From contig JBDKVB010000045.1 of NCBI GenBank assembly GCA_039679385.1, positions 1 to 49,188 on the forward strand: DNA of 49,188 nt, in the 5' to 3' direction. The position numbers and the translations under genes were made by a program. Positions 25,160-40,201 of this stretch are shown piece after piece. The DNA is from Armatimonadia bacterium. GTDB taxonomy: Bacteria; Armatimonadota; Zipacnadia; Zipacnadales; JABUFB01. Each line of letters opens with the position of its first letter. Positions within the stretch are counted from its first letter, which is position 1. Below the pieces are notes generated by a model. That model was not told where the DNA came from, ran no database searches, and saw only the letters and a list, made by a program, of their open reading frames with translations.

Positions 25160-25184
25160 GAGCCCCGGTACCCATCCGGGGCTC
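25160..25184. terminator. Bidirectional terminator between convergent genes
   Basis: A 9-bp perfect stem (GAGCCCCGG 25160-25168, CCGGGGCTC 25176-25184) with a 7-base loop overlaps the stop codon of the SIR2-TPR gene and follows the secreted TIM-barrel gene by 69 bases. Confidence 0.6.
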
Positions 25185-28143
25185 AGTCGTTCTTGGCGCG
25201 AGACAGCAGTTCGCGGAACCATGCGCTCGTACGCACGCTATCCAGGTCGGTGTCGTTCTCCATGTGAGAGCGGGACGGCAGCGTGCCCCCCGTCTCAGCT
25301 TTGAGGAGCAGATCGCGGCAGGCGTCCTCATCGCCAGACAGCGCGGCCAGACAGGCGCGATTGTACAGGGACGAGCCGGGTGCAAGCTCCTCGGCCTGCT
25401 CAAAGCGGCGAGTAGCCTCCGCGGACAGACTTTCGGCCTTGTCAGGCTCCATGGCGGCCATCATTGCGAGGCGGAAGCCAGCATTCGCATGGGCCCTGGC
25501 TACAAGCGTGCGCAGGGCGGGACTCGGGTCCCGCCCATACCTCTCCTCAACCTCGCCATAGGCCGTCATCGCCTCCTCGCTACGGCCCAGCCGTTCCATC
25601 GCGACGCCCTTGTTCACGAGTGCTCTGGCAACCCGCTCACGCAGGGCAGGGCTCGTGTCCCGTCCGTACCTCTCGTCGACCTCGTTATAGACCGCGATCT
25701 CATCCTCGCTCCGACCGAGCTGGCCTAGTGTGATGCCCTTGCTGAACAGCGCTGCGGCAACCTTCTCACGCAGGGCCGGGGCTCGGTCGTCCCCGTAACG
25801 CCTCACGCCCTGATCGAACGCCCGGATCGCGTCCTCGCTCCGGCCGAGCTGGCCTAGTGTGACGCCCTTGCTGAACAGCGCTCCGGCAACCCGCTCGCGC
25901 AGGGCCGGGGCTCGGTCGTCCCCGTAACGAATCACGACCTGGTCGAACGCCTGGATCGCCTCGTCGCTCCGATCGAGCTTCTCCAGCGCGACGCCCCTGT
26001 TGGACAGTGCTCCGGCCGCCACCTCACGAAGGGCGGGACTTGGATCGTCCCCATAGTGCGCGATGGCCTCGTCGTACGCTGCGATAGCCTCCTCGCGGCG
26101 GCCCATCTGCCCCAGCTGGACACCCTTGTTGAACAGTGCCCGAGCTACCACTTCGCGCAAGGCAGGGCTCGGGTCGTCCCCGTAGCGTGTGACGATGTCG
26201 TCGTACGCCGCCAGTGCCCCCTCACCACGTCCCATATCCCTGAGGGCATAGCCCTTCCCCAGTAACGCCCTGGCCACCACCTCACGCAGAAACGGTCTGC
26301 CGTCATCGCGGTAGCGGGAGAGAACCCTCTCCAGGGCCCCAAGTGCGCCCCCAGGACGGCCCAGCCGCCCCATCATGGCGCCCTTGTTCAGTAGTGCCCG
26401 AGCCACCACTCCACGCAGAACGGGACTTGCATCGTCCGTGTACCGTGCGACGACGCCGTCGTAGGCCGCCATGGCCGCTTCTCCCCGGCCCATTCGCTCC
26501 GACGCGATACCTTTGTTCAGAAGTGCCGCGGCCACGAGTTCGCGCAGAGCGGAACTTGGGTCGTCGCCGTAACGTGTGACGACCTCGTCATAGGAAGTGA
26601 CCTCTTCGTTGCTGGAACCCGGATGCCCCAGTATGATGCCCTTGTTCAGTCGCACCCTGGCCATCGTTTCGCGCAAGGGGAGGCTCGAGTCTTCCCCGTA
26701 GCGCGCAATGACGGCGTCCAGAACCGCCATTGCCTCCTCGCCTTCCCCAGCCTTGTATAGACGCCATGCACGGTTGTTGAGGACCCCTGCGATCTGGGCG
26801 TGCTCGCTTGGCTGCAGTGTGGTAGCTGGTGTCCCCGGGTCCAGGAGCCGGTTGGCAACCTGCGCAAGGAGGTCGTCTGTCGCCAGCCTCTCCTCCACCC
26901 AGGGGGCAGGACAGGTCTCCGCCAGGAGGCCAAATAACTCGCGGAGTTGGTCCCAGCTGTAGTCTGCCAGGTCGACGGCACTAGCGGCATGGACTGCGCC
27001 ACGGTAGTTCGCCTGGCGCACCCACGTGCGCACGTGTGTGAGAGCCTGCTGGGTCGGCGACGGCGATTCAGTCCTCCTGCTGCACAGGAGGAGACCTTCT
27101 GCACGTCTGAGGTCCGTTAGCACCCCCGCGACGTTATAGATCCCACTGGAACCGTCCTTCGTGAGGGCATCCACGAGTTGCCTACGGAAGGCGCGGAGGG
27201 GCCGAACGAACAACCGCGGATCGGGCAGCTCCAACACCGAGACCAGTGCACCAAGAACGGTCTCTGCGCTGAGAACAGCCTTCCCCTGGGCCATATCAAT
27301 GACCGTGGTCCGGCGGTCTGGGCGCTCATCCGCGGGGCCCGGCGGCGCCACGACGCGAACGTCAGGGTGGTCACGGAGCCAGGGTGGCAAGGCAGCGGCT
27401 TCCTCGTGTTGGTAGGCGAACCAGTACAGATTGCTCCGCAGCCCCCCGTCCCGCATGAGGCGCCTTTCCAGCGCCTTCATCACCACATCGCTCTTCCACC
27501 CCGCGTAGCCAACCACGATGGGGGAGCGGCTAGTAAGCACGCGGTCAAGGTACTCGCTCATGGTGCTGTACGGCTGCTCGGGCAAGCTCTCGGCCCGCTT
27601 CTCGATCTCACCCTCACGGTTACAGCAGTCGTAGAACCAGTAACTGCCGTGGACGTGCACCACCCCCGGAGCGGTTCCAGAAGGGTCGACACGGTCGGCC
27701 GTCAGGGGATGGTCGCTGACTGCCGGCTCCGCTCCCAGCAGACGCAGGGCTCGCTCTATCGTGTCGTCGAAGTTGATAGTGACAACGAGGTTGGTCAGTC
27801 CACGCGCCGGATCCTGGAGGAGGTGCGCCAACCGCAGAACGGCCTGGGATGCCGGCCTGTTGGCAGCTATCCTCTCGATATAGCGCCGCCTGTCTCCGCG
27901 ACCTGGGTACGCGGCCTCGAAGAGCTTGCCGTAATCAGTGGCGGGATTACCCGTTTCCTTCGGCAGCGGACGGCCCAAACGCTGGCATTCGGTCCGGCAG
28001 TGCTCCATGATCCCACTCGCGAGCGGGACCGATGGGGCCGATACTCCAGCTCCGGCGATGACGAAGAACGGCGACTGCTCCTTGGCTTCCTGCGCCAGGT
28101 GTACGCTGACCTCGATCTCATTGATGGCCTGCCGGAACTCCAT
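25183..28143 (-). CDS. SIR2-like NADase fused to TPR repeats, candidate defence protein
   Basis: This 986-aa cytoplasmic protein has an N-terminal SIR2-like domain (about 20-270): GAGVS (31-35), VVTINFDD with Asn124 and Asp126, the HVHG motif with His165, and VVGYAG (210-215). These are the NAD-pocket residues of SIR2 effectors. Then come an unassigned linker (about 275-450) and ten perfect-register 43-residue TPR-like repeats (452-881), followed by a short C-terminal domain. SIR2 domains in Thoeris, DSR and other anti-phage systems deplete NAD; TPR arrays often sense protein partners. The start is ATG at 28143 with AGGTGGAG nearby. A TTG further upstream lies within the predicted promoter and is rejected. 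No immunity partner is encoded beside it. Confidence 0.88.
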   Translation of the reverse strand: MEFRQAINEIEVSVHLAQEAKEQSPFFVIAGAGVSAPSVPLASGIMEHCRTECQRLGRPLPKETGNPATDYGKLFEAAYPGRGDRRRYIERIAANRPASQAVLRLAHLLQDPARGLTNLVVTINFDDTIERALRLLGAEPAVSDHPLTADRVDPSGTAPGVVHVHGSYWFYDCCNREGEIEKRAESLPEQPYSTMSEYLDRVLTSRSPIVVGYAGWKSDVVMKALERRLMRDGGLRSNLYWFAYQHEEAAALPPWLRDHPDVRVVAPPGPADERPDRRTTVIDMAQGKAVLSAETVLGALVSVLELPDPRLFVRPLRAFRRQLVDALTKDGSSGIYNVAGVLTDLRRAEGLLLCSRRTESPSPTQQALTHVRTWVRQANYRGAVHAASAVDLADYSWDQLRELFGLLAETCPAPWVEERLATDDLLAQVANRLLDPGTPATTLQPSEHAQIAGVLNNRAWRLYKAGEGEEAMAVLDAVIARYGEDSSLPLRETMARVRLNKGIILGHPGSSNEEVTSYDEVVTRYGDDPSSALRELVAAALLNKGIASERMGRGEAAMAAYDGVVARYTDDASPVLRGVVARALLNKGAMMGRLGRPGGALGALERVLSRYRDDGRPFLREVVARALLGKGYALRDMGRGEGALAAYDDIVTRYGDDPSPALREVVARALFNKGVQLGQMGRREEAIAAYDEAIAHYGDDPSPALREVAAGALSNRGVALEKLDRSDEAIQAFDQVVIRYGDDRAPALRERVAGALFSKGVTLGQLGRSEDAIRAFDQGVRRYGDDRAPALREKVAAALFSKGITLGQLGRSEDEIAVYNEVDERYGRDTSPALRERVARALVNKGVAMERLGRSEEAMTAYGEVEERYGRDPSPALRTLVARAHANAGFRLAMMAAMEPDKAESLSAEATRRFEQAEELAPGSSLYNRACLAALSGDEDACRDLLLKAETGGTLPSRSHMENDTDLDSVRTSAWFRELLSRAKND
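25501..26790 (-). repeat. Ten tandem 129-bp repeats encoding TPR units
   Basis: Ten consecutive units of exactly 129 bp (43 codons, no indels) encode the helix pair with core ALxNKGxxLGxxGRxEEAI, then AYDxVVxRYGDD and PALREVV. Two neighbouring units, around 25690-25800 and 25820-25930, are almost identical over about 90 bases, a sign of recent duplication or gene conversion. Confidence 0.85.
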
Positions 28144-28224
28144 CTTCTCCACCTGGCGTCCCTTACGGTTAATGACGTGACGATATGTTGCCGTGGTAGC
28201 CTCGCCGACCTTGCCCAAGATATA

Positions 28225-29370: not shown

Positions 29371-30204
29371 CTAGACCAGGGGAAGGCCCAGGACCTTGCA
29401 GTACCGTGCGTAGGCCTGCCGGTAGCTGCACACCTCGCGTGAAGGCGGCCACTGGGTGCAGTTCGCCGCCTCGGTCTCAAGGTGTATCAGGCGCGGACAG
29501 TCTCCCAGCGCCTCCACGACAGGCTCCCATTGGATCGTCCCCTGCCCGGGCAGCAGGTGCTGATCAGAGGTCCCGTCGTTGTCATGCAGATGCACCGTGA
29601 CGACGTAGGGGCTCAGCGCCCGCAGCACAGCGGCTGCATCGTCGACCAGATGCGCATGCCCGGAGTCGTAGCAGATCCCCACGCTCGGGCAGTCATACTC
29701 GGCCACGAAGGACAGCAACTGCTGGTTCGTCGCCACGTAGCCGCTGAAGCCGTTCTCCAGCGCCAGGAGGATCCCGAGTTCCTCCGCACGAGGCGCCAGC
29801 TTGTCCACGGCATCGCGAATCCGGTCCCAGGCGGCCCGGTCTGAGCCATCCTTCGGCTTCGGCCCCAGATGCAGCACGAAGGTCCGGCAGCCAAGCTCCG
29901 CCACCTTCGCCATCAGGCCGGTGTGCATCTGGACCATCGTCGGCCGCAGGTCCTCGTCGGGCTCAGTCAGGTTGGAGGGACCCCAATCCTGGCAGTGACA
30001 AGCCGGAGCCGCAAGCCCCAGGCCCTTCAGTATCCGCCCGGCCTCAACGAGGTCGGCACGCTCACGTAGGTCGAGGTTGCCACGCTGGGCAGTGAGGACG
30101 ATGCTGCGGATTCCGGCCTCGGCGACCTGCCGGTACGCAGTCTCGAAGTCCTCGAAGCTACCGGACCACACATGGTAAGCGAGATCAAGGTCTGCGAGCA
30201 TCAC
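29371..30204 (-). CDS. Sugar phosphate isomerase/epimerase (xylose-isomerase-like TIM barrel)
   Basis: This 277-aa protein is an AP-endonuclease-2/xylose-isomerase-like TIM barrel. Visible metal-ligand positions are Glu in LALENGFSG, Asp/His in CYDSGHAH, His in VHLHDND and Glu in IHLETE. The fold converts ketoses and aldoses or epimerises sugars; the substrate is unknown. Starts GTG 30204 and ATG 30201 both follow AGGAG by 7 and 10 bases. The gene is alone on this strand and convergent with the lipoprotein gene. A role in catabolising sugars released by the secreted glycan-active proteins nearby is plausible. Confidence 0.87.
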   Translation of the reverse strand: MMLADLDLAYHVWSGSFEDFETAYRQVAEAGIRSIVLTAQRGNLDLRERADLVEAGRILKGLGLAAPACHCQDWGPSNLTEPDEDLRPTMVQMHTGLMAKVAELGCRTFVLHLGPKPKDGSDRAAWDRIRDAVDKLAPRAEELGILLALENGFSGYVATNQQLLSFVAEYDCPSVGICYDSGHAHLVDDAAAVLRALSPYVVTVHLHDNDGTSDQHLLPGQGTIQWEPVVEALGDCPRLIHLETEAANCTQWPPSREVCSYRQAYARYCKVLGLPLV

Positions 30205-30359: not shown

Positions 30360-31775
30360 CTACTGCTTCTCGCCGACTCGGTACCAACGGGAGAAGTCTT
30401 GCGAACCGCGCTGTCCTGCCGACCTGACCGGCGACGCGGCAGGCGCCTCGGTTCTCCGCAGCGCACGCGGCGACACAGACGGCGCTGAAGCCGGCTTTTG
30501 CCCGTTCACGCGTTGCTCCACCGGAGCATCGAACAGCAGAGGGCCTTCATACCGACCGCTCTCGTCGAGGATGTGCGGGGCGATGAAGATGAGGACCTCG
30601 CGCTGCGCCGCCTCAGTGTCGTGTGAGCGGAACAGCGACCCCACGACCGGCAGATCTCCCAGGAGCGGTATCTTGGTGTTGGTCTGCCGAACGATCTCCT
30701 GCAGCAGTCCACCGATGACGATGGCCTGTCCGTCGTGTACGCGGACCGTGGTGTCGGCCGTCCGCTTGGTGATGATTGGCAGGTTGTTCGTGCCGCGCCC
30801 GGAGACGTCGCCGACCTCGGGCTTCAGTTTGATCGTCACTACCCGATCCGCCAGGGCCACCCGTGGGGTTAGGACCAGCCCAACACCGGACTCGATGGCC
30901 TCCAGGGTCGAGTACTCGTAGCCTGCCCGGCCGGTGAGCATCTGGAAGTACTGCTCGGTCGAGACGCGGAAGGTCGTCTCCTGGCCCTCCTGGGCGACGA
31001 CTCGGGGGTTTGCCTTGATGGACGCCTTGTCGTGCTGCTTGAGCCACGTCAGTGTGCCGATGATGTCCTGCGCCTCGCCGAGGTAAGTCACCAGGCCGCC
31101 AAGGGTGCTGAGCCCCAGGTGCGTCGCCTGGCCGGCGATCTTGAACCCGTCGAGCGCGCCCTTATCCACGTCCATGACGAGGGCCTCGATCATCACCTGC
31201 ACCGGAGGCGTGTCGAGCTGCTTGATCTGCGTCAGAACCTCCTCCATCTGCTCTCTGGGGGCAGTGACGGTGACGCGGTTGCCCTTCCGATCAAACTTGA
31301 CGAAGGGGGCGACAGTGTCGGGAAGCAGGGCCTTGAGGTCGTCGCTGTCCGCATAGTCGAGCTCCACGACCTGCGTCTGGGCAATGCGCCGGAAGCTCGG
31401 GGACTTGGGGTCGGGAGAGGTGACAAGGTAGATGCCCGGCTCGACTTCGGTGTAGACATAGCCGCCGGGCAGGAGCAGGAGCTTGAGAGCCTGCTGGAGG
31501 GTGGCGTCCTTGAGCTCAAGCGTGACGGTGCCCATGACCGATTCGTCGGGCAGAATGCTGACCCCTGCGGCCATCGCGACGTCGGCGAGAGCCTGAACCA
31601 GGTCGGTCTGCATGAACACATTCGAGATAAGGCCCGGTGCCGCGTGGCCGGAAGGCTCGCCGCCGGCGTCGGTGTCCCCAACCTGGCAGTGTCCGACGCC
31701 GGCCACGAGCAGCACAAGCAACGCCCCGGCCGCCAGCAGTGGCCCGACAGGCGTGTAGGTCCTGGGATGCAGCAT
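30360..31775 (-). CDS. Secretin-family outer-membrane protein
   Basis: This 471-aa exported protein (hydrophobic segment about 10-30) has an N0/STN-like module (about 48-115, VFMQTDLVQALADVAMAAGV), an N1-like module (about 130-188), and the secretin core (about 190-425) ending VIGGLLQE, IPLLGDLPVVGSLFR and LIFIAPHIL. A Ser/Pro/Arg-rich tail follows. Secretins form the outer-membrane pore of type II/III secretion, type IV pili and phage egress. The length is near the minimum. No partner ATPase, inner-membrane or pilin genes are in the window. The start is ATG 31775 with GGAGG six bases upstream. It lies downstream of the PapD-like gene with a 154-base gap. Confidence 0.9.
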   Translation of the reverse strand: MLHPRTYTPVGPLLAAGALLVLLVAGVGHCQVGDTDAGGEPSGHAAPGLISNVFMQTDLVQALADVAMAAGVSILPDESVMGTVTLELKDATLQQALKLLLLPGGYVYTEVEPGIYLVTSPDPKSPSFRRIAQTQVVELDYADSDDLKALLPDTVAPFVKFDRKGNRVTVTAPREQMEEVLTQIKQLDTPPVQVMIEALVMDVDKGALDGFKIAGQATHLGLSTLGGLVTYLGEAQDIIGTLTWLKQHDKASIKANPRVVAQEGQETTFRVSTEQYFQMLTGRAGYEYSTLEAIESGVGLVLTPRVALADRVVTIKLKPEVGDVSGRGTNNLPIITKRTADTTVRVHDGQAIVIGGLLQEIVRQTNTKIPLLGDLPVVGSLFRSHDTEAAQREVLIFIAPHILDESGRYEGPLLFDAPVEQRVNGQKPASAPSVSPRALRRTEAPAASPVRSAGQRGSQDFSRWYRVGEKQ

Positions 31776-31929
31776 CGTCACCCTCCGTAGTGCAGACACT
31801 TGCGATTCGCACTTCATGGCACAGGCCACGCACGTGGCGCAGCAGGTCCTAACGAACCGGCTGGCCCTATCAGCCGCCGGCAGGAGAGAGCTGATCCGCG
31901 GGCACGGCAGGACGGGCCTTCCGGCCGGA

Positions 31930-33636
31930 TCACGGCGCAGGGGCTGCCGGCAGCGGTGTCTGTGGGGCGGCCGTGCTCTCCCACGCAGGGGCGTCGAAGA
32001 CGACTTCGCGTTGGCTCGCCTTGCCATCCGCACGCGCCAGCGTGGTGACGGTTGCTCGGGCTTTCCCAGGCCGGAGTATCGTGTCAAGCGGCGCTGTGAA
32101 ACGTCGTTGCTGGCCCGGGAGCACCATCACGTCCCCGGCTGCGAGCGACGCAGAGGCCACGGCGACACCTCCGCCTGCATCGCTAACACGGAGCGATACG
32201 AGCGGCCAGGCAATGCAGGGGCCAACATTGCGGACCACCACTGTGACCGCCGCAGAAGGCCTGTTTGGATTGCTAACGGACAGGTCGACGATCTCACACG
32301 AGGGCTGTGCGTTGCGGCCTACGGTGATGCGCACGACGGCGTAGGACGGGTAGAACAGGCCCTGTGGGGAGTTCGCGTCACGGACGCGCAGACCGGCAAC
32401 GTAGTCCCCGTCGGGTGTGTTCCGCGGAACCGTCAGGCCGACGCGTATGGTTGCGCGACCGCCCGGGGCCACAGTTGTCTCCTGTGGCTGGAGTGACAGC
32501 CAGGTTCTCGCGCTCTGCTGGTGTTGCGGTACCTCGGCCGGGAACTCGGCCTCCCCCACATCACTAAGCTGGAAGTCCGAGCACGAGAGAGCAAGGCTGA
32601 GCGCCTGCTTCCCCACGTTCGTCACCGTCAGCGGCCTCGAGGTGCTGCCACCAGGAGGCAGTGCGATGGACAGCTCCTGGGGTGACATCTCCGCGGCAGG
32701 GCGCAGGCTGTCCAGGAGGGCGATCACCTCCGGGGTAGGCTCAGTGTCCTTCACATGCCCGTCCCTGACGACGAAGGCTTTCGTGCCTGCTGCGCGAATT
32801 CTCGTGCCGGGCACCTCGAACTGCGCGGTCAGCAGGTACACCCCATCCGCGATATGTTGCATACCATCTGCTGCAAATACCCGCACCGCTGAAGCCAGGA
32901 CTGTCGCCGATCCGGAATCCAGCGGGCCGCGCGAAATGCCGCCGCCTGTTGAGGAGCGGAGCTGGTAGGCACCCACTACTTTGGCGTGGATGGTGCCCTC
33001 ATTCCGCACCGCTGCCTCGACCCGCCACCCGCCGCGGTCATTAGCTGACGGAGGCCGAACACCCACTCGGAGGCCGTCGACCTTCAGGCTGGGGGCCACC
33101 CGTGGCCCGGGTACGGCCAGCAGCACAGCCGAAGCGAAGGCCTGGGTCATCGTGATCCCTACTGCCGGACCGCTCTCTGGCGAGGGAGACGAAACCGTGA
33201 TGAGTGCGTAGTAGCCACCTCTGGCGTCGCGCGGGACCCGCACCCGGCAAGTCACCCTTTGGCTCCCCGCAGGCGGCACTTTGAAGCTCTGTGGCGAGAG
33301 GCTTAGCCACTTCGCGCATCCACGCGGGTCATCGTCGGGTGCGCTCCTTGCGAACCCCTGCGGCGCCGCCGTCATGTTGGTCAGGGCGACCGTGAAGGCC
33401 CGTTCGACCGGATCGCCGTTGGCGACGGTCAAGTCGAACTCGGTGCCCTGGCCCGGCTTGACGACGGGACGAACCACCATGGGCGTAACCTGGATGCTCG
33501 CGAGTACTGCTCCCGTTGACACACAGAGCAGAAGCGGCGCCAGAACCGCCCAAGTGTATGCGGTGCGCCTTACCAAACGTCGCGGGGGCAGTGCGCCTCC
33601 GGATTGGCGGGACGTGCTGTAGCGACCAAGCGCCAC
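31930..33636 (-). CDS. Exported protein with PapD-like (fimbrial chaperone/DUF916-type) modules
   Basis: This 568-aa exported protein has a signal peptide (about 28-50). It has at least two Ig-fold modules typical of PapD/DUF916-type proteins: one starts IQVTPMVVRPVVKPGQ with WLSLSPQSFKVPPAG and VPRDARGGYYALITV; the second has WLSLQPQETTVAPGG and VPRNTPDGDYVAGL. Such modules bind extended partner strands or polymers. A Pro/Ala-rich C-terminus may reach the envelope. The start at GTG 33636 was chosen because GAGG lies eight bases upstream; a TTG further upstream has no such site. The gene precedes the secretin and follows a strong hairpin. A chaperone role is inference. Confidence 0.75.
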   Translation of the reverse strand: MALGRYSTSRQSGGALPPRRLVRRTAYTWAVLAPLLLCVSTGAVLASIQVTPMVVRPVVKPGQGTEFDLTVANGDPVERAFTVALTNMTAAPQGFARSAPDDDPRGCAKWLSLSPQSFKVPPAGSQRVTCRVRVPRDARGGYYALITVSSPSPESGPAVGITMTQAFASAVLLAVPGPRVAPSLKVDGLRVGVRPPSANDRGGWRVEAAVRNEGTIHAKVVGAYQLRSSTGGGISRGPLDSGSATVLASAVRVFAADGMQHIADGVYLLTAQFEVPGTRIRAAGTKAFVVRDGHVKDTEPTPEVIALLDSLRPAAEMSPQELSIALPPGGSTSRPLTVTNVGKQALSLALSCSDFQLSDVGEAEFPAEVPQHQQSARTWLSLQPQETTVAPGGRATIRVGLTVPRNTPDGDYVAGLRVRDANSPQGLFYPSYAVVRITVGRNAQPSCEIVDLSVSNPNRPSAAVTVVVRNVGPCIAWPLVSLRVSDAGGGVAVASASLAAGDVMVLPGQQRRFTAPLDTILRPGKARATVTTLARADGKASQREVVFDAPAWESTAAPQTPLPAAPAP

Positions 33637-33666
33637 GGCGATCACCTCACTGACGGGAGACTGCAA

Positions 33667-33697
33667 GGGGGCGGGCGCCTGTGGGGCGCCCGCCCCC
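33667..33697 (-). terminator. Very strong GC hairpin between subunit-like and PapD-like genes
   Basis: A 13-bp perfect stem (33667-33679, 33685-33697) with a 5-base loop sits between the stop of the 240-aa gene and the start of the PapD-like gene. On the minus strand it is followed by only a short TT. It is either a terminator with partial read-through or a 3'-end stabiliser. Confidence 0.6.
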
Positions 33698-33720
33698 GGA
33701 CGATCGCGACTGACTGTGGC

Positions 33721-34443
33721 CTAGAGGTCCGGCACGAGGATGACTGCCGGGTCCAGGGTGTACTTGCCATCGGCCTGGTACTGGCTCGGTGTAGCTGTCA
33801 CCTGGAACTCGTAGTCAACGGCGCCCACGGGGACTCGTCCGGGGCTGTACCATCCCCAGTTGGCCGAACCCACGCCGCCCGACCATTCCATCGCCGCAAG
33901 GGTGTTCCCGACCTTCATCTTCCACACGAGGGGGATCGCGCTCACGTCGTCGCCGAGAGCCCCGCCGAAGCCGTCGTTCGTGTTCGCTGCGGTTCCGCCG
34001 AGCCCATCCTTCTCGAAGACAAGTTGGGACGCCTGAGATTGGTCGGCCTGCACCCACCCATCCTTACGGATACCAACCCAGCAGGGATGGTTCTGCACGA
34101 TGTGGCCCGTCAGAACCGCCGTCTGAGCCGCAAAGGGCGGAGCACCCCAGTGGAAGACGGCCTTGGTCTGCTGCGTCTGGCTGGCGTACAACTCCACGTA
34201 GGCTTCGACCACGAGGCCGTCGTCGCCGCCGGTGCCGGTAGCGGGGACCCAGCGGCTGTCGTCGTTGTCCCACCAGCCTGTCCAGGAGTTGCTCCCGCTC
34301 GTCTGCGTCCAGTTGGTCCAGTAGGCGCCGTAGATCCCACCCGAGCCTGGCGAGCCCGCCCAACCGTCCTCGGCCCCTCCGGCCGCCATGGCGGCGGTTC
34401 CGACCAACATCACCAACGCAACAGCTACGATCAGGTTACGCAT
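33721..34443 (-). CDS. Small secreted protein, candidate structural subunit
   Basis: This 240-aa protein has a signal peptide (about 1-21, ending AMAA). The mature part is Gly/Trp/Ser-rich and beta-like (GGIYGAYWTNWTQTSGSNSW, EWSGGVGSANWGWYSPG), with only one Cys. No family is recognised. The ATG at 34443 has GGGGAG eight bases upstream and a structured leader lies in front. A very strong intercistronic hairpin after it may give it higher abundance than the PapD-like and secretin genes that follow, as for a major fibre subunit; that is inference. Other roles are not excluded. Confidence 0.7.
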   Translation of the reverse strand: MRNLIVAVALVMLVGTAAMAAGGAEDGWAGSPGSGGIYGAYWTNWTQTSGSNSWTGWWDNDDSRWVPATGTGGDDGLVVEAYVELYASQTQQTKAVFHWGAPPFAAQTAVLTGHIVQNHPCWVGIRKDGWVQADQSQASQLVFEKDGLGGTAANTNDGFGGALGDDVSAIPLVWKMKVGNTLAAMEWSGGVGSANWGWYSPGRVPVGAVDYEFQVTATPSQYQADGKYTLDPAVILVPDL

Positions 34444-34451
34444 TGTCCTGT

Positions 34452-34475
34452 CTCCCCTTTTCCCCTATACTGGGG
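34452..34475 (-). promoter_or_regulatory. Hairpin next to the ribosome site with alternative pairing
   Basis: CCCC (34475-34472) can pair with GGGG (34465-34462) or with the GGGG of the ribosome site (34457-34454). The second pairing would hide the ribosome site. The arrangement could be a simple translational switch; it is inferred from base pairing only. Confidence 0.4.
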
Positions 34476-34480
34476 ATGGT

Positions 34481-34537
34481 CTGCGCGGAGAGCCGAAGAT
34501 GGTGGCTAGGCCACCTGGGGACGGCTTCTTTGCGCAG
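34481..34537 (-). promoter_or_regulatory. Candidate structured leader RNA
   Basis: Three nested stems are perfect: CTGCGC/GCGCAG (34537-34532, 34486-34481), AGCCG/CGGCT (34526-34522, 34495-34491) and GGTGGC/GCCACC (34515-34510, 34506-34501) with a CTA loop. Purine-rich internal loops separate them. It lies in the 5' leader of the 240-aa gene. It does not match a known riboswitch consensus that I can recall; it could be a novel cis-regulatory RNA. The rest of the gap (34538-34910) shows no gene or promoter that I can support. Confidence 0.45.
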
Positions 34538-34910
34538 ATCTTCTTTTTGGCGCCTGGCCTTCACCCTGACCAGTTCGGGCAGCTAGCGCCGCCCGGTCTT
34601 GACAGCCCTCTCAGGCTGCACGGCCCTCGGAGGGGCTCTACGGCCGCTCTTGATGATGCTGTGTCCCGCAGAAGCCCGTGCGTCTCGACCCTTCCCCTTT
34701 GCGGTCCGTGATCCCAGACCGGAGACGAACTCCGCGTCGGGCACCTGTACCGCGCCAACCCCTTCAGTTTTCCCAGCCCCGTGTCGTGCCTGTGGTCAGG
34801 TGATCCGGTCCTGCCGCAGCTACACCTCCAATCACTTCACTACTTCACGCGGGCCCCTGGATCGCAACACCCCCTTAGGTTCAGGACGCGAGCAGATAGC
34901 AGGCGTATAA

Positions 34911-35558
34911 TCAGTGCTTGCGGTGTCGCACCCCTTGAGCTGCTTTCCCCTCCGCCACCAGCGATAGCGGGCACTGGGGTGCGTACCTCCCCGGCGCCAG
35001 GAAGCGTGCGGGTACTGCGCGGCAGCGAAGCTCGAACCCGAACACTCGCGGCTCCCCCTGCCCGACCAACCACCACAGGGCGCGCTCCGGCGAGGTTCCG
35101 ACCGGGCCAAGATCAGGCTTGACCCAGGGACCGAAGCCACCAGGGCCCTTCCAGCGCAGTTCCCATTTGAGCGGCAGCGTGTTGTCTGTCGAGGCAGGGC
35201 CGCTTACTTCGCGGCCCTTGTAGTCGGCCACCCGCTGCAGGCTGAGGCGGTCCATCCCCTGCGGCAAGAGAAGGCCCAGGCGGACCTGCCCGCCGCAGGA
35301 GACGACGACGCCGGTCACCGCGTTGGAGACGACTTCCTCTTCGTTGATGGGCAGAATGTTACCAAGGTCGAGGGAGGAGCTCAGAAGGGTGACTTCAGGG
35401 GGCGCCCAGCCGTTGCCGCCACACGGGGCAGGCACCTGGGTATCGGCTGCCACGCAGATCGTCGTCCCCAGACCCAGAGCCAGCAGGCACCAGAGGAGCA
35501 CGCACAGGTGGCTTTTCGGGCTTTGGGCAGCTCCTGGACCGACGCGGACCGCTCTCAC
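34911..35558 (-). CDS. Small secreted protein, spore-coat-U/fimbrial-like
   Basis: This 215-aa protein has a hydrophobic N-terminal segment (about 20-38) serving as a signal peptide. The mature part has strands typical of fimbrial or coat-U-like proteins: TLLSSSLDLGNILPINEEEV, VTGVVVSCGGQVRLGLLL and later a WELRWKGP segment. Two separated Cys pairs could form disulfides. The start at GTG 35558 was chosen because GGGAGG lies seven bases upstream; the frame is open further upstream without a site. It is the most upstream gene of the secretin cluster. Similarity to coat-U is weak and only local. Confidence 0.6.
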   Translation of the reverse strand: MRAVRVGPGAAQSPKSHLCVLLWCLLALGLGTTICVAADTQVPAPCGGNGWAPPEVTLLSSSLDLGNILPINEEEVVSNAVTGVVVSCGGQVRLGLLLPQGMDRLSLQRVADYKGREVSGPASTDNTLPLKWELRWKGPGGFGPWVKPDLGPVGTSPERALWWLVGQGEPRVFGFELRCRAVPARFLAPGRYAPQCPLSLVAEGKAAQGVRHRKH

Positions 35559-36490: not shown

Positions 36491-36548
36491 GCACTCGGGG
36501 AATAGTGGCTTTGCGATGGTGCAGAGCCTTGGCCAGGGAGGACCTGCC

Positions 36549-38546
36549 TTGTCGGATACCCCCACGGCGAGCCCCAGACGGACCGGCGATGCCAACCTCG
36601 TCCGCAGGAGCTTAGTCCTGGTGGCGATCGCACTCCTGGCCGGCCTGCTCCTCACCTACCTCGGTCAGATCGACCTGCTGCGCCGCTTCGAGCTGATGAC
36701 CTACGACCTGCGCATGAGAGAAGCGCCCGTCACAGCCCCGCCGGAGATCCTCGTCGTAGCCATCGACGAGCGCTCGATTCAGCAGTTCCAGGCTTGGCCC
36801 TGGCCCCGCAGCACCCATGCACGACTCATCGATCGCCTCCGGGCTGCCGGGGCGAAGCTGATTGCCTTTGACGTGGTCTTCGCCGGGCCCTCCGGTGGCG
36901 GTGCCGCCTTTGACAAGGAAGTGCCGCTGGAGCAGTGGGGCGAGAGCACCTCTCCGGAGGACAAGACCCTGACCCGCGCCATCAGGAAGGCCGGCAACGT
37001 GATTCTGGCCGCTACGCTACCCGAAGGTGAGGGACAGAGCGAGGATAGCGCGCAGGGCTCCCTGCAGGCCCCGGAGATGCCCTATGAGGATTTCCAGGAG
37101 GCGGCTTTGGCCGTCGCCCCGGCGAATGTGGTGCGTGACCCGGACAACGTGGTCCGGCACTACTGGCTGACGCTGAAGCACCTGGACGAGACCTATCCCT
37201 CGCTGGCGGTGTCCATCGCGTCACACGTCCAGGGGGTATCAGACGCAGAGGTGATCAAGGGAGCCTCCGCGCAAGCGAGCAGCGACGTACCGGCGAATCA
37301 GATGCTGCTGTGGTTCAGCCCACTGGAGACCGCAGCCGGCGGCTTCGAGGTGGTCTCCTACTACGATGTCTACAAGGGGCTGGTGCCCGCCGACCGAATC
37401 AAGGGTCGGATCGTGGTGGTCGGCGGAACGGCCCCGGTGCTGCAGGACCTCTGGCAGACGCCGATGCTCAGTGGCGCCCGAACCGAGGGCGGTGCCCAGA
37501 AGGTCGGACTGGTCCCCGGGGTCGTGGTGCAGGCGACGGCAGTCGCCAATCTGCTGCAGCAGCGTCACCCCGGGCCGGTGACCTGGCCGACGAAGCTGAT
37601 CGTGGCCCTGGTGGCCTGCCTGCTAGTGGCGCTTGCCCTGGTGTTTCTGCGCCCGCTCACGGTGCTGGTTCTGGTGATGATCCCGGTCAGCGCGCTCCTG
37701 CTGATCTTCGGCACCTGGGCTCTCAACGTGCATCACCTGTGGATGCCGGTGGCGGTGCCTGTGTTGGCGGCCTGGACGACCTGCCTGGGAGGCACCACCT
37801 ACCGCTATATGGCTGAGGAGGCCGGGAAGCGCCGCCTGCGCCGCGCCTGGCAGAGGAGGGTATCGCCCGAGGTGCTCCAGCTTATCCTGCGCGACCCCAC
37901 CATGACCCAGGTAGAGGCACGGGAGGTCACGGCGACCGTCCTGTTCTCCGACCTGCGAGGGTTCACCACCTTGAGCGCGCTGCACTCGCCACAGGAGCTG
38001 GTGCAGGTGCTGAACCACTACCTCACCCGCATGACCGCAGTGATCCTCCGCCACGGCGGCACCATCAACAAGTTTCTCGGTGACGGCATCATGGCAGTCT
38101 TCGGAGACCCCGTGCCGCGACCGGACCACGCCTTGCGGGCTGCGACCGCCGCCCTGGAGATGCAGGAGGATCTGGCGAAGCTCCGCGAGGAGACCGAAGG
38201 CGGCAGTGACGTGTACAAGTCGCTGTTCATGCGCGTAGGCCTGCACACCGGAACCATGCTGGCCGGGGACGTCGGTTCGGAGGACATGCTGGAGTACACC
38301 GTGATCGGTGACACCGTCAACACCGCGTCACGGCTGGAGTCGCTTGGCAAGGAGTATGGCACACAGATCCTGATGAGCGCCGATACCTGGCAGCAGGTGC
38401 AAGGCCAGGTGCAGGCACGGTTCCTGGGCGAGGTGACGCTTCGGAACCGTCCGCAGCCCATTGACGTGTATGAGCTCGTGGGCCTGACGGGCCAGGGTGA
38501 GGCGCCAGAGCAGGAAGCTGCCAGGGAGGCGCAGGAGGACAGCTAG
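36549..38546 (+). CDS. CHASE2-domain class III adenylate/guanylate cyclase
   Basis: This 665-aa membrane protein has a single N-terminal helix (about 20-40), a periplasmic CHASE2 sensor (about 45-335), three more helices (about 348-425) and a class III cyclase domain (about 462-640). Metal-binding Asp468 (LFSDLRGF) and Asp512 (LGDGIMAVFG), Lys508 (NKF), and Asn591/Arg595 (NTASRLE) are present, so it should be active and make a cyclic nucleotide, most likely cAMP. The start is TTG 36549 with GGGAGG seven bases upstream; an in-frame ATG at 36516 has no such site. The FecR-barrel gene follows by 41 bases. Confidence 0.93.
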   Translation: MSDTPTASPRRTGDANLVRRSLVLVAIALLAGLLLTYLGQIDLLRRFELMTYDLRMREAPVTAPPEILVVAIDERSIQQFQAWPWPRSTHARLIDRLRAAGAKLIAFDVVFAGPSGGGAAFDKEVPLEQWGESTSPEDKTLTRAIRKAGNVILAATLPEGEGQSEDSAQGSLQAPEMPYEDFQEAALAVAPANVVRDPDNVVRHYWLTLKHLDETYPSLAVSIASHVQGVSDAEVIKGASAQASSDVPANQMLLWFSPLETAAGGFEVVSYYDVYKGLVPADRIKGRIVVVGGTAPVLQDLWQTPMLSGARTEGGAQKVGLVPGVVVQATAVANLLQQRHPGPVTWPTKLIVALVACLLVALALVFLRPLTVLVLVMIPVSALLLIFGTWALNVHHLWMPVAVPVLAAWTTCLGGTTYRYMAEEAGKRRLRRAWQRRVSPEVLQLILRDPTMTQVEAREVTATVLFSDLRGFTTLSALHSPQELVQVLNHYLTRMTAVILRHGGTINKFLGDGIMAVFGDPVPRPDHALRAATAALEMQEDLAKLREETEGGSDVYKSLFMRVGLHTGTMLAGDVGSEDMLEYTVIGDTVNTASRLESLGKEYGTQILMSADTWQQVQGQVQARFLGEVTLRNRPQPIDVYELVGLTGQGEAPEQEAAREAQEDS

Positions 38547-38587
38547 ACAGACAGTTCAGAATCAGTCCCATCGCAGGAGGTCGCAAA

Positions 38588-40201
38588 ATGATCAGGGCTT
38601 TTTGCGCCATGGTTGGCGCCCTGGGCATGCTGGCAATCTCACAGACCACCTGGGCGGCCGCGCCCTGTGCGACGGTCACCGGGGTGGTGCTCCAGGTGAG
38701 CTATCAGCAGCCGCCGGCCAAGGGCTGGTCCACGGCGAAGGTCGGGACCAGGCTCTACGCCGGGGCCAGGGTGCGCACGGCGAAACGGTCGAAGTGCGAG
38801 ATTGCCTTCCCGGACAAGAGCCGCATCAGGATGAACGAACTCAGTGAGCTGGCCATCGCCAACGCCACCAGCAAGGACGTGAAGCTGGCACGCGGCAACC
38901 TGTATGCGCGGATCGTCGCCGGTACCGGGGCACGCATCGCGGGAGCGGGCGGCGTTGCGTCGATCAAGGGGACGCAGCTAACCTACGACGGGCAGACCCT
39001 CGCGGTCTATGAGGGTGCTGCCGACCACGAACTGGCACGCGGCGTCGACCATGTTCCGGCAGGCAGCGCCTCCAGCACCTGGCGACCCGACATCTACGAG
39101 GTACCCGCCCTGCAGTGGGAGGGTGGCAAGCTCCGGCCGTGGTTCCAGGACGTCGGTCCGGGCGTGTCTCTGGGGACAATCGGCGGCTCACGGCCGGGCA
39201 CCTCGCTCAAATACGGGCGAGCCGGGATGATCACCGGCATCGCGAGGATGCTGACCGGCGGCATCGTGCCCTGGGGTGACGTCGGTGTGATCGTCGAGCA
39301 AGCTCCACCCGGCGGAAAGGTCAACCCCAGGGGCAGCTACCGTGGCTCGGGAGCAGCCCTTGGTGCTCTGGGCGCGAGCTTCCTTTTGGAGGACTGGAAC
39401 AAGGATCCGCATCCCCTGGGTGGAGGCGCCTTCGGGCCCTTCTTTGACGGCTCAGCCTTCGCCATCGAGGGAGAGAATCGCAATGACATGACTGGTGGCG
39501 AGCTGCGGGCGTGCGCGATGAAGGACAACCTGTTCCTGGGCCTCGGCTGGGTGGGCTATTCCGACTACCCCGCCGACCCCTACATCGCCCTCAGTGAAGC
39601 CTTTCTTGCCTACCGCGACGAGAGTATCGGCGACATCGCCGTCGGCAAGCAGTGGTTCCTGGAAGGGCCGGTCAACAACACCCGCCTTGGCTCACTAATG
39701 AGCTTCGACCGGGCGACGGCACTTCGCTGGCAGGGCCGTGCCGGGAAGGCCGAACTGGATCTCGCCTATCTGTATGACGTGCTGCCAACGTCTTCTGCGC
39801 GCCGTGAGGGGTGGGCGGGACGTGCCCAGTTCGGACTCTGGAACGGCACCGTCGGCCTCAACGCGCTGTACGACAACGATCTCTCCGACACCGGGGTATC
39901 CTGCGACTTCTGCTTCCCAGTCCTACCGGGAACTCTCGACCTGTACGGCGAACTGGGTGATGACGCCGCCGGCAACCACCTGCAGACCTGGGGCGCCTAC
40001 TTCCCCGGGCTGTATCAATCCCTGGGCGTCGATCTGTACCTTGAGTATGCGAAGCGCGGCAGCCTCAACTCGCTGACGTCCGCCTCGGTCTACAAGGAGA
40101 TCAGCGACGGGTGGTCGGGACTGCTGCTGTTCAAGGACGTCGAGGGTAAGTCTGCAGTGTTTGGCCTGGGGATCGCCCGGGAGTTCGGGCACCAGAAGTA
40201 A
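38588..40201 (+). CDS. FecR-domain protein fused to an outer-membrane-like barrel
   Basis: This 537-aa exported protein has a signal peptide (about 1-24), a FecR-type domain (about 30-145: VGTRLYAGARVRTAKRSKCEIAF, IRMNELSELAI, GGVASIKGTQL), a linker with Pro-rich loops, and a C-terminal half of beta-strands ending in REFGHQK. The barrel part has Trp/Tyr-rich strands (LFLGLGWVGYSDY, AELDLAYLYDV). FecR domains often sit next to CHASE2 cyclases and sense or assemble envelope components. It follows the cyclase by 41 bases with GGAGG upstream, so co-expression is likely. The ligand is unknown. Confidence 0.83.
   Translation: MIRAFCAMVGALGMLAISQTTWAAAPCATVTGVVLQVSYQQPPAKGWSTAKVGTRLYAGARVRTAKRSKCEIAFPDKSRIRMNELSELAIANATSKDVKLARGNLYARIVAGTGARIAGAGGVASIKGTQLTYDGQTLAVYEGAADHELARGVDHVPAGSASSTWRPDIYEVPALQWEGGKLRPWFQDVGPGVSLGTIGGSRPGTSLKYGRAGMITGIARMLTGGIVPWGDVGVIVEQAPPGGKVNPRGSYRGSGAALGALGASFLLEDWNKDPHPLGGGAFGPFFDGSAFAIEGENRNDMTGGELRACAMKDNLFLGLGWVGYSDYPADPYIALSEAFLAYRDESIGDIAVGKQWFLEGPVNNTRLGSLMSFDRATALRWQGRAGKAELDLAYLYDVLPTSSARREGWAGRAQFGLWNGTVGLNALYDNDLSDTGVSCDFCFPVLPGTLDLYGELGDDAAGNHLQTWGAYFPGLYQSLGVDLYLEYAKRGSLNSLTSASVYKEISDGWSGLLLFKDVEGKSAVFGLGIAREFGHQK

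Follow-up and report, generated by a model that had tools for sequence, protein, structure and literature searches.

A conserved operon joins small secreted proteins and a tandem WxLIP-like protein to a dedicated secretin

Analysis of contig C45 in the 5.6-Mb draft genome of an Armatimonadia bacterium, which belongs to the phylum Armatimonadota, revealed a cassette of four genes, encoding two small secreted proteins (A and B), a tandem immunoglobulin-fold protein (C) and a short secretin (D), and we show that this set is an operon conserved in several phyla. The cassette very likely represents a genuine dedicated system, and it is likely a variant of chaperone-assisted outer-membrane assembly that has not been described previously. 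As the best reading of its function we lean, with limited confidence, towards a chaperone-secretin pathway for the export or assembly of small beta-subunits.

Layout of the cassette and its conservation across phyla

Open reading frame calls over the window, by which we mean the whole stretch of DNA analysed (49,188 nt), placed the four genes side by side in the order A-B-C-D, all on the minus strand. Gene A (34911..35501) encodes 196 amino acids from its preferred GTG, in a frame open from 35633, and gene B (33721..34443) encodes a small secreted protein of 240 amino acids; both products are candidate subunits. Gene C (31930..33666) codes for a 578-amino acid tandem protein of WxLIP/PapD fold, the proposed periplasmic chaperone, and gene D (30360..31775) for a secretin of 471 amino acids, whose open reading frame opens at 32087 and whose start was set near 31775 as in its relatives. 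A hydrophobic, signal-like segment is present at the N-terminus of each of the four proteins. No type II/type IV pilus ATPase (T2SSE) was found on the contig, which is the whole window, and prepilin motifs are missing from the starts of all genes called there.

We searched 121 relatives with C and read the surroundings of the matches, then carried out phylum-wide searches with C and D profiles in 291 Armatimonadota and 103 Thermotogota genomes. A peptide-pattern search for related loci with C alone returned nothing, C being too divergent, and an alignment of the secretin worked. In about 45 loci the operon consists of one to five small genes, C and D, with the small genes usually preceding C. 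A same-strand secretin gene lies at most 3.3 kb downstream of 28 of the 30 full-length C genes in Armatimonadota, the two exceptions being contigs on which the link between C and secretin could not be read. C is present in 61/103 Thermotogota genomes, the cassettes there including those of Mesoaciditoga sp., a Thermotogae bacterium and Thermotoga maritima MSB8, and 35 of 45 full-length C genes in this phylum are followed by a same-strand secretin within the same distance. Among the ten Thermotogota exceptions, one genome (G311) has its secretin on the other strand at a distance of about 2.5 kb and another (G312) looks alike, and in a third (G307) the gene lies at a contig end. A shorter, single-module form of C, described below, was followed by a same-strand secretin within 3.3 kb in none of 21 cases.

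One rival explanation is a chance neighbourhood of four unrelated genes for secreted proteins, which are common in the host genome. Against it, the order is kept across at least four phyla; complete cassettes also occur twice in a Latescibacterota genome and once in a Planctomycetes genome. Moreover, by our own estimate, with at most nine secretins per 5.6-Mb genome, a same-strand secretin would be expected at most 3.3 kb downstream by chance in only about 0.3% of cases. Since 28/30 and 35/45 were observed, we regard this rival as all but excluded.

These results bear on an earlier note made from the sequence alone, which had described a secretin, a PapD-like protein and two small secreted proteins with no ATPase or pseudopilin. 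The four-gene observation held, its coordinates and domain matches being confirmed, and the absence held for the contig and for prepilin motifs in the window genes. The note had also proposed that a failure of the genes to co-occur would refute it, and over the 291 Armatimonadota and 103 Thermotogota genomes it was not refuted.

The host genome likely carries a second cassette, split over two contigs. One (C169; locus L174, 1519-7680) carries three small genes, C and, at the contig end, a gene for a large repetitive secreted protein; the other (C129; locus L011, 109-1521) has a secretin of the cassette clade at its start. No exact overlap joining the two contigs was found, and the link remains unproven.

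In T. maritima the small proteins of the cassette are TM1113-TM1115, with TM1116 as C and TM1117 as D; the last member, TM1118, is another secretin-N-like protein. These numbers were inferred from gene order, the neighbouring TM1112 having been identified through PDB entries 1lkn/1o5u, and the number assigned to D agrees with a published listing in which TM1117 is a secretin, placed with the competence genes as a homologue of 'pilQ' (PMC5637354). An extra gene follows D in Thermotogota (L200 9489-10580, which is TM1118 by order; L059 9071-10534; L060 9077-10549), and its product begins with a secretin-N/STN-like part and ends in an aromatic residue resembling that of an outer-membrane beta-signature. 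It is absent from the Armatimonadota cassettes that we read. Regulator-like genes also adjoin the Thermotogota cassettes (L200 10684-11748, L208 3351-4406, L059 11659-13023, L060 2488-3996); as read from their sequences, they are of winged-helix type in Thermotogales and of sigma-54 type in Mesoaciditogales.

Protein D belongs to a dedicated secretin clade

D matched the Pfam Secretin family PF00263 at 4.6e-40 (137.4 bits against a cut-off of 27.5), the domain being encoded at 30567..31043. Its short periplasmic part (31200..31556) consists of a single Secretin_N domain (PF03958, residues 132-190, 4.6e-8) and an N0/STN-like domain (PF07660, residues 72-118), the latter weak and under the cut-off. 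The secretin domain and N-domain are thus common to D and to GspD, PilQ and RcpA, but D has only the N0-like domain and one further N-domain, and its NCBIfam scores for GspD, PilQ and SctC all stayed below the cut-offs. The genetic context differs as well, since D is linked to C and small proteins, with no ATPase, platform protein or pseudopilins as in type II secretion, type IV pilus and Tad systems.

We then compared 74 secretins, 37 of them from cassettes, in a phylogenetic tree. A single branch separated all 37 cassette secretins from the rest (bootstrap 97, SH-aLRT 96), and this grouping was recovered in 98% of bootstrap trees and in 0/500 label shuffles. The clade stood apart from the Tad-like, PilMNO-linked and triple-locus secretins of the host genome, as well as from the type II and type IV pilus secretins of other phyla. 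The cassette secretins thus form a single dedicated clade. In addition, the distances among C proteins and among D proteins correlate (Mantel r 0.71, 0/2000 permutations), to which host relatedness contributes. The triple locus is a conserved arrangement of three tandem secretin genes, which in the host genome lie on contig C138 (L010 3846-9063) and code for 479, 655 and 572 amino acids. It was also seen at L057 4329-9164 and L062 5366-9937 and, judged by spacing, in many Armatimonadota genomes, and its secretins group in the tree by their position within the triple.

The cassette secretin could instead serve a type IV pilus, Tad or type II system whose ATPase is encoded elsewhere, with C and the small proteins as accessories or minor substrates. 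In favour of this are the listing of TM1117 as a pilQ homologue (PMC5637354) and several T2SSE-type ATPases in our genome, on contigs C68, C133, C141, C148 and C173, with no secretin listed on the same contig. The host has nine secretins, and the Tad-like locus on C138 and the PilMNO-like locus on C91 each have their own. The earlier note had held that a pilus or type II locus lacking its own secretin would count against a separate system, and on this point the result in this genome was mixed. The worry is mostly answered, because across genomes the cassette secretin is linked to C and never to an ATPase. Further evidence against this rival is that the cassette clade is separate from the pilus, Tad and type II secretins that these genomes also encode, that pilus genes in the cassettes we read are limited to two prepilin-like genes, one in L048 and the other upstream in L053, and that T. 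maritima encodes another secretin, TM0088, apart from the cassette (PMC5637354). We consider it unlikely.

A phage-derived export gate, that is, a short pIV-like secretin with virion-like small proteins, is very unlikely. D is indeed short like pIV, and the D family profile matches the phage 'virion export protein' structure 7ofh at 6e-21; the same profile, however, scores far higher against GspD and PilQ structures (7e-44). There are no phage genes nearby, the spread in two phyla looks vertical, and no relative of B turned up when viral contigs were scanned, which argues against a viral origin. Taken together, the conserved operon and the dedicated clade support the claim of the earlier note that the genes represent an unrecognised fibre or export system, with export or surface display not excluded and fibres remaining a hypothesis only.

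Protein C is a tandem relative of WxLIP

C is an all-beta protein built of two tandem, two-domain immunoglobulin modules, the first encoded at 32746..33501 (residues ~56-307) and the second at 31996..32703 (residues ~322-557). In Pfam, the C protein of the window passed the gathering score of fn3_5 (4.3e-9) and reached 22.2 bits for WxLIP_PGBD/DUF916, below the cut-off of 27.3, which was passed by its relatives in T. maritima (35.7 bits), L053 (29.8) and L230 (30.9). The C family profile matched the structures of Enterococcus faecium EfmWxLIP1 (PDB 9i1y/9i25) at 9e-7. No match to the PapD family PF00345 was found in C by Pfam. On this evidence we assign C to the relatives of WxLIP (DUF916), in tandem form. 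It lacks one hallmark of WxLIP, as a hydrophobic C-terminal segment that could form the transmembrane helix was found in 0/33 C proteins.

Structural comparison gave weak support only, since the AlphaFold model of C rested on four alignment rows and reached a pLDDT of 55, which is low confidence. Using VIA-align with this model, we found that module 1 aligned best to WxLIP 9i1y (Z 13.0), and module 2 to the usher-pathway chaperones YadV (Z 11.7), CfaA (11.5), CsuC (11.3) and FimC (11.2), with Caf1M also among its matches at Z about 11-12; the two-domain matches of module 2 had a large rmsd, and a family missing from the VIA-align list was not counted as evidence. The top Foldseek rows were ciliary Ig-repeat (ASH) proteins, and MSP, ASH and other folds score like chaperones against the model. 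Because the fold is this common, the matches are support and no proof. The description of C as carrying two PapD/DUF916-type modules in the earlier note therefore held in part: there are two immunoglobulin modules, and 'PapD-type' appears right as a fold, as far as a low-confidence model can tell, but only weakly as a sequence family, the sequence being nearer to WxLIP/DUF916 than to PapD.

The kinship with WxLIP suggests a way in which C might act. AlphaFold predicts that a hairpin strand of WxLIP is placed into a gap of WxL and completes the WxL sandwich (PMC10599100), and the PDB holds a WxLIP-WxL complex (9i25). The strand insertion predicted there rests on the principle that also underlies donor-strand complementation.

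The small secreted proteins are conserved in position and diverse in sequence

A homologue of gene A occupies the same position in the relative locus L041 (1.4e-17), and L177 holds a third copy. Homologues of gene B adjoin C in L041 (5.7e-90), L042 (3.5e-79) and L043 (1.6e-12), and another lies beside a single-module C in L047 (6.4e-14); a C-terminal segment, 'Q.DGKY.LDP..', is conserved in the B alignment. Because these homologues exist, we take A and B to be real genes. Neither had a Pfam or NCBIfam match at a meaningful score, and nothing in Pfam or PDB matched the small proteins of the cassettes in general. We do not claim a spore-coat-U or other pilin identity, there being no Pfam, NCBIfam or PDB match; accordingly, the weak coat-U/fimbrial likeness claimed for one small protein in the earlier note found no support, with no Pfam or NCBIfam match at E<1. 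The WxL domain gave no match at E<1 in the two window proteins and ~17 small proteins of relatives, which does not exclude distant kinship.

Across cassettes the small proteins are diverse in sequence, and in many of them the C-terminus consists of a glycine-x-aromatic segment and then a strand with an alternating hydrophobic pattern. This C-terminal motif was present in 36/80 small proteins versus 92/660 other proteins of the same loci, a fivefold enrichment (p 6e-10), but it was chosen after inspection of the sequences. Such a strand recalls the last strand of pilins and of WxL domains, a likeness inferred from sequence alone. An AlphaFold model of one Mesoaciditoga small protein gave no usable fold (pLDDT 33). 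As the small proteins in certain cassettes of Armatimonadota fall into clusters with Thermotoga ones, the set seems to have been passed on whole, by descent or by transfer.

The kinship of C leaves room for another rival, a surface-anchoring or envelope complex in which WxL-like small proteins would be tethered by C to peptidoglycan or the envelope, with the secretin as a structural outer-membrane anchor or tether. According to one proposal, WxLIP binds WxL on peptidoglycan as well as on host surfaces (PMC10599100), and the aromatic, beta-signature-like last residue of the T. maritima protein after D also speaks for anchoring. Against it are the lack of a transmembrane anchor in C, the nature of the partner, which is always a dedicated secretin and thus a member of a gated pore family, and the lack of a WxL domain match in the small proteins. 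This explanation remains possible.

A sister operon pairs single-module C with a different large protein

A form of C with one module only (about 270 amino acids) occurs in a further group of Armatimonadota loci (L055, L237-L254). As in the cassette, it is a WxLIP-like protein preceded by small secreted genes, whose products have a like C-terminal strand; in place of the secretin, however, nearly all loci with enough sequence have a protein of 650-970 amino acids after the single-module C. Many copies of this partner carry Ig/NEW3 domains in the front part, and CarboxypepD_reg-like (transthyretin-fold) domains lie at its end. Despite its usher-like size and domain order, it had no usher-family match. 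That the same subunit/chaperone logic occurs with two different large partners suggests, by inference, that the outer-membrane part is interchangeable, and it is the best indirect argument for D as the exit component.

A possible chaperone-secretin pathway

In the pathway that we favour, Sec would export C and two (elsewhere one to five) small beta-rich subunits. Soluble C would bind and complete the subunits in the periplasm, probably by strand complementation, and the complex would dock at the short N-domains of D, so that the subunits may pass or polymerise through the secretin ring to the cell surface. There they would probably polymerise by strand exchange into a fibre or surface layer, driven, as there is no ATPase in the operon, by the energy of folding or polymerisation. 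The missing C-terminal transmembrane helix fits the role of C as a free chaperone. Apart from the signal-like N-termini of the proteins, the scheme is inferred: no direct evidence exists for chaperone action, contact between subunits and C, passage through D, the energy source or fibre formation. Export of the small proteins by the secretin is an inference that we place slightly ahead of its alternatives; that the product is a fibre we find a little doubtful, a layer or free protein being also open. Secretin-coupled systems usually need an inner-membrane ATPase, and the absence of one from the cassette counts against the secretin-export reading. To our knowledge, no other system pairs an immunoglobulin-fold chaperone with a secretin.

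The cassette has several features in common with chaperone-usher pili (PapD/FimC, archaic Csu), namely candidate subunits that are small, secreted and beta-rich, a proposed chaperone with two-domain Ig-fold modules encoded beside them, a pore in the outer membrane and the lack of an operon ATPase. Its pore gene, however, codes for a secretin, C comprises two two-domain modules in tandem without a PapD-family sequence match, and the subunits match no pilin family. The usher family PF00577 had no match in the host genome, the E. coli control being positive. The Gram-positive WxL/WxLIP (DUF916-DUF3324) clusters likewise place a WxLIP relative beside one or more small secreted beta proteins, for which strand complementation is predicted (PMC10599100); in the cassette, however, C is duplicated and without the C-terminal helix, the WxL domain is undetected, the hosts have an outer membrane and the partner is a secretin. 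On these grounds we classify the cassette neither as a chaperone-usher system nor as a WxL cluster, and its secretin not as that of a type II, type IV pilus or Tad system. In the open-access literature we found no paper linking DUF916 with secretins (subscription papers were outside the scope), and on the cassette only the table entry listing TM1117 as pilQ.

A bolder reading would make the cassette a separate, undescribed class of ATPase-free chaperone-secretin pathway, with tandem WxLIP-like chaperones, a dedicated secretin and strand-complemented subunits, present in Armatimonadota and Thermotogota and having an usher-like sister version; we offer this tentatively and would not yet bet on it. 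If the chaperone-secretin pathway is true, subunits delivered by a chaperone can leave through a secretin, a task hitherto assigned to ushers, and the Gram-positive WxL/WxLIP partnership would have an outer-membrane counterpart. The pathway would also provide a function for TM1113-TM1118, and the entry of TM1117 as an ordinary pilQ would need correction. T. maritima is a model hyperthermophile whose cell envelope, the toga, is poorly understood. Thermotoga sp. RQ7 is naturally transformable and carries pilQ-listed secretins (PMC4029938, PMC5637354), which likely include the counterpart of the cassette secretin, and the chaperone-secretin idea is therefore testable now.

Other genes of the window

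Outside the cassette, the next downstream gene on the same strand (29371-30204) appeared, by sequence reading, to encode a sugar-isomerase/endonuclease-like protein. Upstream, and likewise outside the cassette, the opposite (plus) strand carries a gene for a CHASE2-adenylate/guanylate cyclase, followed by one for a FecR-domain protein (36516-40201); a CHASE2-cyclase and a FecR-domain protein are a common sensor pair. On the minus strand, at 25183-28218, one gene encodes a fusion of a SIR2-like domain with a long array of TPRs; candidate defence or NAD-consuming proteins are known to have this architecture.
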